Assembly: GCA_033439265.1 (NCBI GenBank)
Contig: JAVTVX010000010.1
Coordinates: 26,091,056-26,155,055, forward strand
Reading direction: 5' to 3'
Source of the DNA: Dillenia suffruticosa
Lineage: Eukaryota > Streptophyta > Magnoliopsida > Dilleniales > Dilleniaceae
DNA: 64,000 nucleotides
Both the position numbers and the translations under genes were made by a program. Of this stretch, positions 21,765-33,450 are shown in pieces; position 1 is the first letter of the stretch; each line of letters begins with the position of its first letter. A model generated the notes under the pieces. It saw only the letters and a program-made list of their open reading frames with translations, was not told the origin of the DNA and made no database searches.

Positions 21765-21902
21765 ACTTGATGCATTTCCAAATTTTGTATTAAAATGGGA
21801 GAGTGCTAATATAGATGAGCATGTGAGATGGTCATTTGTACTGCAATCAGAAAATATGCATAAAATAACCATCAAAGTCATAATTAGCAAGAAAAGAAGT
21901 AT

Positions 21903-21974
21903 TTTTGGTTGGAAAATTTTAATTAGGGTTGGTAGATTCAAAGTCTAGAGTGCTAATCACCACATCATAAAACC
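21903..21974 (-). pseudogene. tRNA-Gln relic, unit 1
   Basis: The anticodon arm (ACTTTGAATC) and the 5' half are recognisable, but the T arm and 3' acceptor strand have lost similarity. This is the leftmost and one of the most decayed copies. Confidence 0.7.
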
Positions 21975-22584
21975 TAGTTGGTTTGTAGACAAAGTATGAC
22001 CTTGTAAGGCAGTTTATTTCCAACCTTTTTCATGTCTGAAGTTTAGGGTTGCAGTTGGCTTAGACATAACATCTTACATATTCAGCCAAAGAAATAGAAA
22101 ATAATAGAGGTGATATTAGGGAATTGGGAGGCCTGTGAAAGAGATTTTAATGCCCTGCAAAAGGGGGAAAATGATGAAGTTGTACAAAGTTGGAGTTTTT
22201 GATCAAATTTGTAAATTGTCCTAGGTTTTCTGTGTGTTCAGCAGAAGATAGGAAGAAAAAATCATTAATAAGAAGCATTAGCCAGAAGTTTTAGAATTCT
22301 GCATTCTTTTGTGATCAATATTTATGATAAACAATGGACCTATCTTGGAAAGAAGGAAAAATTAGTATTAATTGTTGCACCACTGGAGGTCTTTTGATAG
22401 GGAAAGATTAGTATTAGTTGATGCATTACTTAATTTCTTGTCTAAATGGGATGTGTATACTTAGAGACAAGCTTGCAAGATGGTCATTTGATGTTATAAT
22501 AGTAATCCAAATGGTATATGGTAAGCTGCAAAGTTATGTGGGAGAAGGATATTAATAGATGAAGTGCATGTCATTTTTGGTTGA

Positions 22585-22656
22585 AAAAATGTGATGGAGT
22601 TGAACCAAGGTCGCCGGATTCAAAGTTTAGAGCGCAAAGCACTACACCATAGAACC
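22585..22656 (-). pseudogene. tRNA-Gln relic, unit 2
   Basis: The 5' acceptor and D arm are kept; the 3' acceptor strand no longer pairs and the anticodon stem has mismatches. Confidence 0.75.
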
Positions 22657-23254
22657 TGTTTGGTTTATGGATGAAGTATGCCCTATATACGGGGATTATA
22701 TGCAACCTTTTCAACATCTCAATTTAAGGGTTACTGATGGTTTGAAGATAGCATATGGAAGAGTGTTACACATCCAGTTGAAGTAAGGGATAAAGAATGG
22801 AGGTGTTATAGGGGAAATGTTAGGAGGCTTGTCGCAGAGCCTTACGAAGATATCATGCTCAAAAAGTGAAATAGGGAACAAAGTTGAAGTTCCTAATCAA
22901 AATTGTGATTGATCTTGGTTGGCCTTGTGTTTGAGGAAGATAGACAATCATTTATGAGATAGACTAAGTTCTAAATTTCAAAAAACCGGAACCTTTTGAG
23001 ATCAATCCTTGTGACAAGGGAAATTATGATTTTTACTTTTTTGATGATATTCTTTGATGCATTACTTAATTTCTCATGTAAATGGGATATGCATGATTAG
23101 AGACAAGTATGCAAGATGGTCATTTGATGTTGCTTTGGTAGCACAAATGAAAATGGAAAGAGAAAAATAGACTACCTGCAAAAGTTACATGTGAAAAAAT
23201 ATATTAATAGATGAAGTGCGTCCCATTTTTTGTTAAAAAAAAGTGATAGATAAA

Positions 23255-23326
23255 AGGTCGTACTGGGAGTCAAACCCACGTCGCTGGATTCAGAGTCCAA
23301 ATTGCTAACGACTACATCATAGAACC
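23255..23326 (-). tRNA. tRNA-Gln-like copy with CTG anticodon, unit 3, diverged
   Basis: Length is the full 72 nt. The anticodon loop reads CTCTGAA, so the anticodon is CTG instead of TTG, still a glutamine anticodon. The acceptor stem has one mismatch and the B box has a C-to-T change, so activity is doubtful. Confidence 0.5.
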
Positions 23327-23877
23327 TGTTTGGTTTTCTCTATATGTAGGCACTATATGCAACCTTTTCAACCTCTCAATTTAAGGTTACTGATGGCTTG
23401 AAGAGGACACATGGAAAAGTCTTACACATTTGATTGAAGAAAGGTAAAAAGAATAGAGGTGTTATTGGGGAAACGTCAGGGGGCTTTTGGCAAAGACTTA
23501 TGTGAATTTCATGCCCAAAAAGTGAAAAGGGTACAAACTTAAAGTTCCTGATCAAATTGTGATTTTCCTTGGTTGACCTTGTGTTTTGAGGAAGATGGAC
23601 GATCATTTATGTGATGGATTAATTCCAAGGCTCAAAAAACTTCAAGAGAAAGTTATAATCTTTACTCTTTTTGATGAGGAAAGATAGTTATTAATTGATA
23701 CATTACTTAATTTTTTGTCTAAATGGGATATGTGCGATTAGAGACAAATATGCAAGATGGCATTTGATGTTCCTGTGGTAGCCCCGATGAAAATGGAAAG
23801 AGAAAAATAGAGTAGCTGCAAAAGTTACATGGGAAAAAAGATATTAATAGATGAAGTGTGTGCTATTTCTGGTTAAA

Positions 23878-23949
23878 AGGTCCTACCAATAGTCAAACCT
23901 ATGTCACTTGATTCAGAGTCCAGAGTGCTAACCACTGCACCATAGAACC
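23878..23949 (-). pseudogene. tRNA-Gln relic with CTG anticodon, unit 4
   Basis: It shares the CTCTGAA loop with unit 3, but the anticodon stem and T stem carry unpaired changes. Confidence 0.7.
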
Positions 23950-24461
23950 TGTTTGGTTTACCCTATATGTGGGCATTGTATGTAACCTTTTTAAAATCTC
24001 AATTTGAAGTTATAGATGGGTTGAAGATAGCATATGGAAAAGTCTTACACATTCGATTGAAGAAAGGAAAAAAGAATAGAGGTTTATTGTGGAAACATCA
24101 TGAGGGTTTTGGCAAAGGCTTATGTGAATTTCAAGCCCAAGTGAAAAGGGTACAAAGTTTAAGTTCCTGATCAAAATTGTAATTATCCTTGGTTGACCTT
24201 GTGTTTTGAGGAAAATAGACAATCATTTATAAGATAGATTAATTCCAAGTTTCAAAAAACTACAAGGGAAAATTATGATCTTTACTTTCTGATATGAAAA
24301 GATAATTATTAATTAATACATTACTTAATTTCTTGTCTAAATGGGATATTTGCGATTAGAGACAAGTAAGCAAGATGGTCATTTGATATTCCTATGGTAG
24401 CCCTCATGAAAATGGAAAGAGAAAAATAGGTTAGATGAAGTGTGTGCCATTTTTGTTTAAA

Positions 24462-31032: not shown

Positions 31033-31540
31033 TATTTGGTTTACCCTATATGTGGGCATTATATGCAACTTTTTCAAAATCTCAATTTAAGATTACTAAT
31101 GGCTTGAAGATAGGACATGGAAAAGTCTTAGACATCTAATTGAAGAAAGGGAAAAGGAATAGAGGTGTTATTGGGGAAACGTCTGGAGGCTTTTGGCAAA
31201 GGCTTATATGAATTTCATGCCCAAAAAGTGAAAAGGGTACAAAGTTTAAGTTCCTAACCAAAATTGTGATTGTCCTAAGGAAGTTATACAATCATTTATG
31301 GGATGACCTAATTCCAACTATCAAAAAACTGCAAAGGAAAATTATGATCTTTACTTTTTTGATGAGGAAAGATAATTATTAATTGATACGTTACTTAATT
31401 AGAGATAAGTACGGAAGATGGTCCTTTGATGTTGCTGTGGTAGCCCTAATGAAAATGGAAAGAGGAAAAATGGACTAGCTGCAAAAGTTACATGGGAAAA
31501 AAGATATTAATAGATGAAGTGCGTGCCATTTTTGGTCAGA

Positions 31541-31612
31541 AGGTCCTACCGGGAGTTGAACTCAAGTTGCTTGATTCAAAGTCTAGAGTGCTAACCAGTA
31601 CACCATAGATCC
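31541..31612 (-). pseudogene. tRNA-Gln relic, unit 15
   Basis: Substitutions in the acceptor 5' strand (GGATCTA), D loop, anticodon stem and T arm. The anticodon TTG is still readable. Confidence 0.75.
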
Positions 31613-32144
31613 TGTTTGGTTTACCTTATATGTGGGCATTATATGCAATCTTTTCAACATATCAATTTATTGTTTCCGATGGTAGGAATATAGCACATGG
31701 AAAAGCCTTACACATCAAATTGAAGAAATGAAAAAAGAATAGAAGTGTTATTGGGAAACGCCAAGAGGCTTTTGGCAAAGGTTTGTGAATTTCATACCCA
31801 AAAAGTGAAAAGGGTACAAAGTTAAAGTTTCTAATCAAAATTGTGATTGCCGTAAGGAAGATATACAATCATTTATGGGATGGACTAATTCCAAGTTTCA
31901 AAAAACTGCAAAGGAAAATTATGATCTTTACTTTTTTATGAGGAATGATAATTATTAATTGATACATTACTTAATTTCTTGTCTAAATGGGATATGTGCA
32001 ATTAGAGATAAATATGCAAGATGGCCATTTGATGTTGCTGTGGTAGCCTTAATGAAGATGGAAAGAGAAAAATGGACTAGCTGCAAAAGTTATATGGTAG
32101 AAAAGATATCAATAGATGAAGTGTGCATGCCATTTTTGGTTAAA

Positions 32145-32216
32145 AGGTCCTACCGGGAGTCGAACCCAGGTTGTTGGATTCAAAGTTCAGAGTGTTAACC
32201 ACTACACCATAGAACC
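32145..32216 (-). pseudogene. tRNA-Gln relic, unit 16
   Basis: Acceptor and T arms are intact, but the anticodon stem (CTGAA/TCCAA) has two mismatches and the D stem is changed. Confidence 0.65.
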
Positions 32217-32727
32217 TATTTAGCTTACCCTATATGTGGGCATTATATGCAACTTTTTCAATGGCTCAATTTAAGATTACTGATAGCTTGAATATGGCAC
32301 GTAGAAAAGATTTACATGTTCAATTGAAGAAAGGGAAAATGAGTAGCTGTGTTTTTGGCAAAGGCTTATGTGAATTTCATGCCCAAAAAGTGAGAAGTGT
32401 ACAAAGTTGAAGCTCCTGATTGAAATTTGTGATTGTTTTGATGAAGATCGACAATTATTTATGGGATGGACTAATTCCATTAAAAAAAAATGGGAGGGAA
32501 AATTATGATTTTTACTTTTTTGATGTTGAAGGATAATTATTAATTGATACGTTACTTAATTTCTTGTCTAAATGGGATATGTGTGATTAGAGACAAGTAT
32601 GCTAGATGGTAATTTGTTGCTGCTTTTGTAGCCCTGATAAAAATGGAAAGAGAAAAAAAGACTAGCTGCAAAAGTTACATGGGAAAAAGGATATTTATAG
32701 ATGAAGAGCATGCCATTTTTGGTTAAA

Positions 32728-32799
32728 AGGTCCTACCGGGAGTCGAACCCAGGTCGCTGGATTCAAAGTCCAGAGTGCTAACCACTACACCATAGAACC
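32728..32799 (-). tRNA. tRNA-Gln(TTG), intact, unit 17
   Basis: Identical to unit 5 over 72 nt, with adjacent TTTT terminator. Upstream the flank reads ACCAAAGA. Confidence 0.95.
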
Positions 32800-33356
32800 T
32801 CTTTGGTTTACCCTATATGTGGACATTATATGCAACCTTTTCAATATCTCAATTTAAGGTTACTGATGGCTTGAAGATAGCACATGGAAAAGTCTTACAC
32901 ATCCGATTGAAGAAAGGGAAAAAGTATAGTGGTGTTATTGGGTAAACGTCACGAGGCTTTTGGCAAAGACTTATGTGAATTTCATGCCTAAAAAGTGAAA
33001 AGGGTACAATGTTGAAGCTCCCGATTCAAATTATGATCGTCATTGGTTGACCTTATGTTTTGAGGAAGATAGACAATCTTGTATGGGATGGACTAATTCC
33101 TAGTTTCAAAAAACTGCGAAGGAAAATTTTGATCTTTACTTTTTTGATGAGGAAAAATAATTATTGATTGATACGTTACTTAATTTCTTGTGTAAATGGG
33201 ATATGTGCAATTAGAGTCAAGTATGCAAGATGGTGATTTGATGTTGCTGTGGTATGACATATGGAAAGAGGAACATGACTAGGTGCAAAAGTTACAGGGA
33301 AAAGATATTTAGGTGAATTGCCTGCCATTTTTTGTTGAAAATATGTGATAGGCATA

Positions 33357-33426
33357 AGGTCCTACCGGGAGTCGAACCATGTCGCTGGATTCAAAGTCCA
33401 GAGTACGAACCACTACACATAGAACT
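33357..33426 (-). pseudogene. tRNA-Gln relic, unit 18
   Basis: Two single-base losses (T arm and 5' acceptor/D region) and changed bases make it 70 nt. It is the rightmost unit of the array. Confidence 0.75.
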
Positions 33427-33450
33427 CGTTTGGTTTGTTGTTGAAGTACA

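Follow-up and report, generated by a model that had tools for sequence, protein, structure and literature searches.

An antisense tandem array of tRNA-Gln(UUG) genes in the intron of a duplicated HSFA1-like gene pair in Dillenia suffruticosa

We analysed a 64,000-nucleotide stretch of the Dillenia suffruticosa genome (contig JAVTVX010000010.1, positions 26,091,056 to 26,155,055; hereafter the window), in which one intron of an HSFA1-like HSF gene holds 18 tRNA-Gln(UUG)-like copies in tandem on the opposite strand. Judged by its sequence, this array is an old tandem duplication of a nuclear tRNA-Gln(UUG) gene, and a homologous array lies antisense in the corresponding intron of an intact paralogue elsewhere on the contig. 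The reading we favour, with a probability of roughly 0.7, is that the perfect copies of the old array are transcribed by RNA polymerase III (Pol III) and maintained by selection, that the others have been silenced by methylation, and that the HSF gene of the window decays as one member of a duplicate pair.

With the 72-nt tRNA body as query, blastn placed 18 minus-strand copies at 21927-33425, every one between the coding exons of the HSF gene, as an earlier note on this DNA had proposed; the alignments of the two leftmost copies span only 48 and 61 nt. ARAGORN called 13 of them as tRNA-Gln(TTG) genes, likewise in minus orientation (24461-33427), and 14 array copies reached at least the gathering score of Rfam RF00005. 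Five copies share one identical 72-nt body (24462-24533, 26494-26565, 29272-29343, 30359-30430 and 32728-32799), again in agreement with the note, which had named the scoring of these copies by a tRNA detector as a test of its proposal: all five were recognized by ARAGORN and obtained 65.5 bits each with Rfam. Four further copies carry 3-4 changes and the remaining nine are more decayed or shortened. Fourteen of the 17 spacings between copies fall within 509-682 bp and one measures 241 bp, while the two longest (1,464 and 1,474 bp) contain an insert of ~840 bp. In a self-comparison, whole units with their spacers were mostly ~600 bp long, 74-94% identical and arranged head to tail, and duplication proceeded partly in larger blocks, with a ~3-kb block, shifted by 2 kb, having taken the insert along. 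The locus thus combines at least three genes of the same isotype, head to tail on one strand, with homologous spacers and a mixture of intact copies and pseudogenes, and the claim of a plant tRNA cluster is upheld.

By sequence, the five perfect copies have what is expected of a functional tRNA-Gln(UUG) gene: a cloverleaf, the TTG anticodon, an upstream CAA, a TATA motif and a T-run. Among the 16 of 18 window copies surveyed for promoter and terminator, 14 have an upstream CAA, 13 a TATA at -31 and 11 end in a run of four T residues (T4); the corresponding figures for the perfect copies are 5/5, 4/5 and 4/5. Specifically, the copy at 24462 has CAA at -6, TATA at -31 and TTTT at its 3' end, the copies at 30359 and 32728 have all three elements, the copy at 26494 has CAA and TATA with its first T4 run at +30, and the copy at 29272 has CAA at -6 and a terminal TTTT without an exact TATA.

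The bodies of the perfect copies are conserved far beyond their flanks. We compared bodies and flanks in 16 of the 18 window copies (two edge copies were left out) and in 6 of the 9 paralogue matches (the perfect right-edge copy at C10:11037549 and two partial matches were left out). The five perfect window bodies show no pairwise difference (0/720 sites), whereas their flanks differ by 10.4% upstream (400 nt) and 19.0% downstream (110 nt), and the 60 nt upstream are no less divergent (12.3%). For the 11 non-perfect copies the body differs by 15.2%, about as much as the upstream flank (15.0%), and the downstream flank by 20.4%. Between the perfect window copies and two perfect paralogue copies there was no body difference, against 25.1% upstream and 33.4% downstream. 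Chance was rejected as the source of the five identical bodies by two controls on the same 16 copies: in none of 367 spacer windows were more than two 72-mers identical, as opposed to five in the body, and when neutral evolution was simulated 20,000 times along the spacer tree, five identical bodies never arose.

The age of the array follows from the paralogue. The segment C10:11,021,001-11,057,999 is collinear with window positions 48,988-3,085 over 37 kb, with gaps of which the largest covers ~8 kb of the window. The paralogous HSF gene retains an intact frame of 506 amino acids, and its 13,819-bp intron holds nine tRNA-Gln matches, some partial and three perfect, antisense to the gene. The edge copies of both arrays are collinear: the left-edge remnant of the window (21927-21974, minus strand) corresponds to a remnant at C10:11047563-11047598, and the right-edge copy (33357-33425, minus strand; 93%, with deletions) to the perfect copy at C10:11037549. 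Because both edges are shared, the array must have been in the intron before the stretch was duplicated; on this evidence the alignments show that it predates the HSF gene duplication. They likewise show both duplicates to have kept the antisense array, the inner units having then grown and decayed mostly separately, as in the spacer tree these units cluster mostly by locus, although several branches are weakly supported and one old window unit, 22585, lies closer to the paralogue units. The coding sequences of the two HSF genes differ by a synonymous divergence (Ks) of 0.21 and a nonsynonymous divergence (Ka) of 0.075 according to NG86, and by 0.18 and 0.081, respectively, according to YN00 (472 codons from the readable pieces).

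Furthermore, the arrangement extends to Dillenia turbinata, which was compared through protein models alone, the DNA-level comparison being confined to the source genome. Among 7,987 scored candidates sharing most words, the nearest named relatives of the paralogous HSF were two D. turbinata proteins, here P0121 and P0122. The tree joins the window HSF to P0122 and the paralogous HSF to P0121, with support of 0.966 and 0.968 and with 363/409 and 466/495 identical residues, respectively. Between its HSF exons, P0122 contains a stretch whose amino-acid identity to the translated window spacer together with antisense tRNA-Gln reaches 87.7% (115 bits, compared to a shuffle maximum of 26.2, n=200), and a search with this insert as query returned P0122 itself as the sole match. 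The extra stretch of P0121 matches the paralogue intron at 79% over 38 residues, the shuffle control having been run for the P0122 match only; it holds no tRNA sequence, and its surroundings in the paralogue match window array units at ~67-76%. Most simply, both stretches would be intron sequence annotated as false exons, and by these protein matches the window HSF gene shares the array with its orthologue in D. turbinata. The extent of the array across lineages is accordingly described for the source genome and D. turbinata, the species compared.

The host gene lies on the plus strand of the window and takes its HSFA1 label from the names of the nearest proteins. Its first coding exon (18905-19147) matches Pfam HSF_DNA-bind (E 3.3e-20); the intron (19148-35246; 16,099 bp, GT and AG ends) contains the entire array, which fills most of it; and exon 2 (35247-36499), whose pieces searched singly against Pfam gave no match, is broken by one in-frame stop (TAA, 35565-35567) and one frameshift near 35632. 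The introns with the array measure 16.1 kb in the window and 13.8 kb in the paralogue. The HSF pair that comes next in similarity in this genome (contigs C2 and C5) has introns of ~5.5 and ~6.1 kb, in which ARAGORN found zero tRNA genes; this is in keeping with the suggestion that the array enlarged the intron. The further suggestion that the array ended the use of the gene fared otherwise: since the paralogue keeps its intact 506-residue frame while carrying a homologous antisense array, the array alone need not kill the gene, and as a sufficient cause of HSF loss it was rejected. At 35271-35273 of the window, a Cys replaces an Arg of the HSF DNA-binding domain that is kept in all other aligned sequences except P0122. 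The change is common to the window HSF and its D. turbinata orthologue, and because of this sharing, relaxation of constraint on the window duplicate looks older than the species split, which it may predate. Where four outgroups agree (244 positions), the window HSF departs from them 33 times and P0122 25 times, compared to 21 times each for the paralogue and P0121.

Elsewhere in the genome the same tRNA body is abundant. A 71-nt pattern allowing at most 3 mismatches occurred at 132 places, 65 of them perfect, while the pattern read backwards gave 0. Perfect copies were found on contigs C18 (42), C9 (9) and C10 (8) and once each on C13, C15, C17, C20, C26 and C29; the two HSF introns hold 8 of the 65, and an effect on tRNA-Gln(UUG) dosage is possible. 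On C18 the copies form a satellite at ~18.480-18.601 Mb, with 749-bp dimers as higher-order repeat: the 50 kb examined contained 134 matches, in which intact and decayed bodies alternate mostly at 377 and 372 bp, and an additional 15 probes of 900 bases each gave 7 positives, lying furthest out at 18.480 and 18.600 Mb, with three probes at 18.510-18.519 Mb negative. Across 66 intact-class units, diversity was 0.022 in the body, 0.051 upstream and 0.021 downstream, and 43% of spacer windows were less diverse than the body; unlike in the window array, these bodies are no more conserved than the spacer. Seventeen of the 66 intact-class bodies belong to the two commonest types with a shared G-to-C change at position 9 and in part of the array recur as every third such unit (~2,248 bp), and in the alternating class the six commonest body types are without T33. 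The C9 satellite (C9:9763578-9797557) has 96 matches and an eight-unit higher-order repeat of 2,845 bp over its core, with eight perfect bodies, one per 2,845-bp block. Both satellites have monomers of ~310-380 bp that are related to each other (76.8%), and in both the near-identical arrays could be mis-sized in the assembly. Neither satellite matches the window array over more than ~100 bp around the body, and the best match between C18 spacer and HSF-intron spacer had an E value of 0.38; that the array in the HSF intron and the satellite on C18 recently arose from one source was therefore rejected, the spacers being unrelated. On C15, four tRNA-Gln matches lie ~1 kb apart.

Arrays of other tRNA isotypes were seen in the stretches examined. 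A tRNA-Ile(UAU) array at C1:4296398-4359990 gave 5/5 UAU anticodons, its examined units being >99% identical with a period of ~810 bp, and another tRNA-Ile array at C13:16689794-16717061 gave two UAU and one AAU. tRNA-Cys(GCA) tandem arrays occur on C11, C2, C8 and C30, and the other isotypes read by ARAGORN in those of C11 and C30 probably reflect decay. The genome scan with RF00005, which scored 63 of 49,706 candidates, is not a tRNA census.

In the HSF intron, the non-perfect copies have decayed mainly through C-to-T changes at CG and CHG sites, a pattern examined in array bodies and spacers. Raw counts of C-to-T changes on either strand in ten decayed window bodies (copy 22585 was left out) were 17/60 at CG, 18/90 at CHG and 10/240 at CHH sites (H being A, C or T), that is, 35/150 at CG and CHG combined compared to 10/240 at CHH. 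In the spacers of decayed copies the counts were 13/58, 42/161 and 107/1398, and in the spacers beside perfect copies 5/27, 7/74 and 37/668, respectively, the CHG rate being lower beside the perfect copies (p 0.003). When distinct changes were counted in the window, 13/15 symmetric sites and 8/24 CHH sites were affected (p 0.0024). Such CG- and CHG-biased decay is methylation-like, the footprint to be expected of CG/CHG methylation.

According to the favoured reading, a nuclear tRNA-Gln(UUG) gene was duplicated head to tail within an HSFA1-type intron before the host gene itself was duplicated, and both gene duplicates inherited the antisense array, with inner units expanding and decaying mostly separately. 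Pol III transcription and purifying selection, perhaps aided by short gene conversion, would preserve the perfect copies, while the remaining copies would have become pseudogenes through silencing by DNA methylation, as in reported Arabidopsis tRNA clusters, and the window HSF gene would decay as one half of a duplicate pair. Several observations weigh against this. With 65 perfect copies in the genome, selection on single copies is hard to picture, and gene conversion limited to the body, coming from dispersed genes, would give the same pattern. One perfect copy is without a nearby terminator and one without an exact TATA, and the promoter parts, which were surveyed uncontrolled, may be shared by descent. 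The perfect copies were chosen after the fact, a concern addressed by the spacer-window and simulation controls. Regarding methylation, the raw C-to-T counts are inflated by changes shared through descent, and the distinct changes in the paralogue (7/15 symmetric compared to 6/24 CHH sites) do not differ significantly (p 0.19). Spacers beside perfect and decayed copies do not differ at CG sites (p 0.78) and differ weakly at CHH sites (p 0.08), other changes at CHG sites run the opposite way (0.162 beside perfect copies, 0.043 beside decayed ones), and the CHG contrast may consist of clade-shared changes.

The main rival is homogenisation, in which the array would be passive, satellite-like DNA with some of its bodies repeatedly reset by short conversion from dispersed tRNA-Gln genes. 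Homology to the examined dispersed copies stops at or near the body, so that conversion would end there, and the C18 array, with its body hardly distinguishable in diversity from the downstream spacer, does act like a homogenised satellite. Nevertheless, conversion within the array should reach the flanks, which 60 nt upstream still differ by 12.3%, and 13 of the 18 window copies have not been reset; we consider this explanation unlikely and favour selection on the perfect bodies over body-limited conversion. It is much less probable still that the array is an assembly artefact or a collapsed repeat. Tandem repeats are an assembly risk, but the most similar stretches of at least 200 bp are only ~94% identical, and the paralogue elsewhere on the contig and the separately sequenced D. 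turbinata show the same arrangement; with spacers diverged and both comparisons concordant, an artefact was rejected. Repeated landings in the intron of a tRNA-derived short interspersed nuclear element (SINE) would account for many copies with tRNA-like bodies and are equally remote, as whole units including spacers are homologous, head to tail and in one orientation, six other tRNA-Gln loci resemble the array only in and near the body, over ~100 bp at most, the inserted element on C17 excepted, and the spacer is shared by the paralogue only among the loci compared. At the level of the locus this tandem homology of whole units led us to reject a SINE origin.

A different question is whether the array acts on its host. 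An antisense Pol III array might form a head-on roadblock that lowers HSFA1 expression and helped to end the use of the window copy. By sequence, an antisense Pol III-type unit does lie within an intron transcribed by RNA polymerase II (Pol II), the nesting is present in the same intron of both paralogues and of the gene orthologous to the window copy in D. turbinata, and the window HSF is broken. A precedent comes from mammals, where an antisense Pol III-transcribed mammalian-wide interspersed repeat (MIR) within the first Polr3e intron lowers protein expression ~1.5-fold (PMC5358760). By this analogy interference with HSFA1 is possible. However, the paralogue retains its intact frame despite the same kind of array, the shared orientation reflects one inherited event and is not repeated evidence, and the relaxation marked by the Arg-to-Cys change seems to precede the divergence of the species. 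Moreover, duplicate pairs commonly lose one member. We hold such a roadblock, with its part in the loss of the window gene, to be improbable, more so than homogenisation; it is compatible with selection on the perfect copies, and the likelihoods given here need not sum to one. Bolder, and to our mind quite improbable, is the proposal that in Dilleniaceae the antisense arrays in both HSFA1 introns are regulatory, with Pol III activity at the perfect copies slowing HSFA1 elongation and coupling tRNA demand with the heat response, the intron of the lost duplicate serving as a tRNA-Gln factory and the same tRNA existing also as a satellite.

Besides the perfect and edge copies, the array comprises, all on the minus strand, a truncated remnant (22596-22656), two decayed copies with 9 (23255-23326) and 10 changes (23878-23949), both with a CTG anticodon, and decaying copies with 8 (25936-26007), 9 (29787-29858, called by neither ARAGORN nor Rfam), 6 (30961-31032) and 8 changes (31541-31612). 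Near-intact copies have 3 (27958-28029, without a T4 run within 40 nt; 28522-28593) or 4 changes (28763-28834; 32145-32216). In the paralogue, the copy at C10:11043781 has the anticodon CTA and is a tRNA-Pyl according to ARAGORN, which would read amber codons if active. The ~840-bp element is present at 24957-25801 (flanks ACAAG/ACAAA) and, 87.8% identical, at 26987-27823 (flanks ACAAG/ACAAG), where it sits in a block matching that of the first insert at 89% over ~3 kb. It encodes a short open reading frame, VTKARAKRLKEEL, which we take to be retroelement-like, and has a 67% relative at C17:5784567-5785293. General tRNA and Rfam scans of the window also identified a tRNA-Val(AAC) on the plus strand (50965-51038) and two snoR100 H/ACA small nucleolar RNAs on the minus strand (59540-59852).

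Clusters of this kind are known from plants. In the passages of the articles considered here, identical tandem tRNA pairs span all 20 standard amino acids and clusters reach up to 110 genes (PMC12652284), which implies small plant tRNA-Gln clusters, and the Pro, maize Ile and Arabidopsis Cys clusters resemble the window array as local tandem duplications of one isotype (PMC11700998, PMC12652284, PMC10701932). Pro, Tyr-Ser and Ile clusters are those named in PMC11700998, whose main text contains neither 'Gln' nor 'glutamine'; with spacings mostly of 0.5-0.7 kb, the window array is looser than the rule of at least 3 genes per kb quoted there, if that rule is read strictly. The Arabidopsis SYY cluster on chromosome 1 (tRNA-Tyr/Tyr/Ser), which is methylated, silent in most tissues and active in root-tip cells, likewise has tandem units and an intact core with flanks richer in variants and pseudogenes, but it consists of other isotypes and is reported to intersect constitutive heterochromatin, and the passages on it describe no antisense array in the intron of a duplicated transcription-factor gene (PMC12308677). 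The Polr3e MIR shares with the window an antisense Pol III unit kept across species in the intron of a Pol II gene; it is, however, a single SINE-derived unit with demonstrated interference, whereas the window holds a tandem tRNA array known from its sequence (PMC5358760). The C18 and C9 satellites resemble the window array in having perfect and decayed bodies of the same tRNA in tandem, and differ from it in their ~310-380-bp monomers within higher-order repeats and, on C18, in a body without sign of constraint. Literature searches returned no report of tRNA-derived satellites or of plant tRNA-Gln satellite or tandem-array DNA; among the matches listed, judged by title and start of abstract, none was relevant to tRNA genes with HSF introns, and those listed for Dilleniaceae or D. 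turbinata included no such genome report. The kind of cluster is known; within the reach of these searches, what is new is its nesting in an intron, the shared inheritance and the scale.

The array is best read as a plant tRNA cluster in an unusual seat: an HSF intron, antisense, in both duplicates and with a protected minority of copies. What makes plants retain large and redundant arrays of tRNA genes is an open question that can be addressed with such an array pair, as a duplicated HSF pair, one gene broken and one intact, here carries sister arrays of known relative age. Protected and decaying copies lie side by side, which would allow one to test whether conservation of the body marks active copies, and the pair of loci lets one test whether transcription of a Pol II gene is slowed by Pol III units arrayed against it. 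Moreover, with several further tRNA arrays in the same genome, the process may be studied at different ages.

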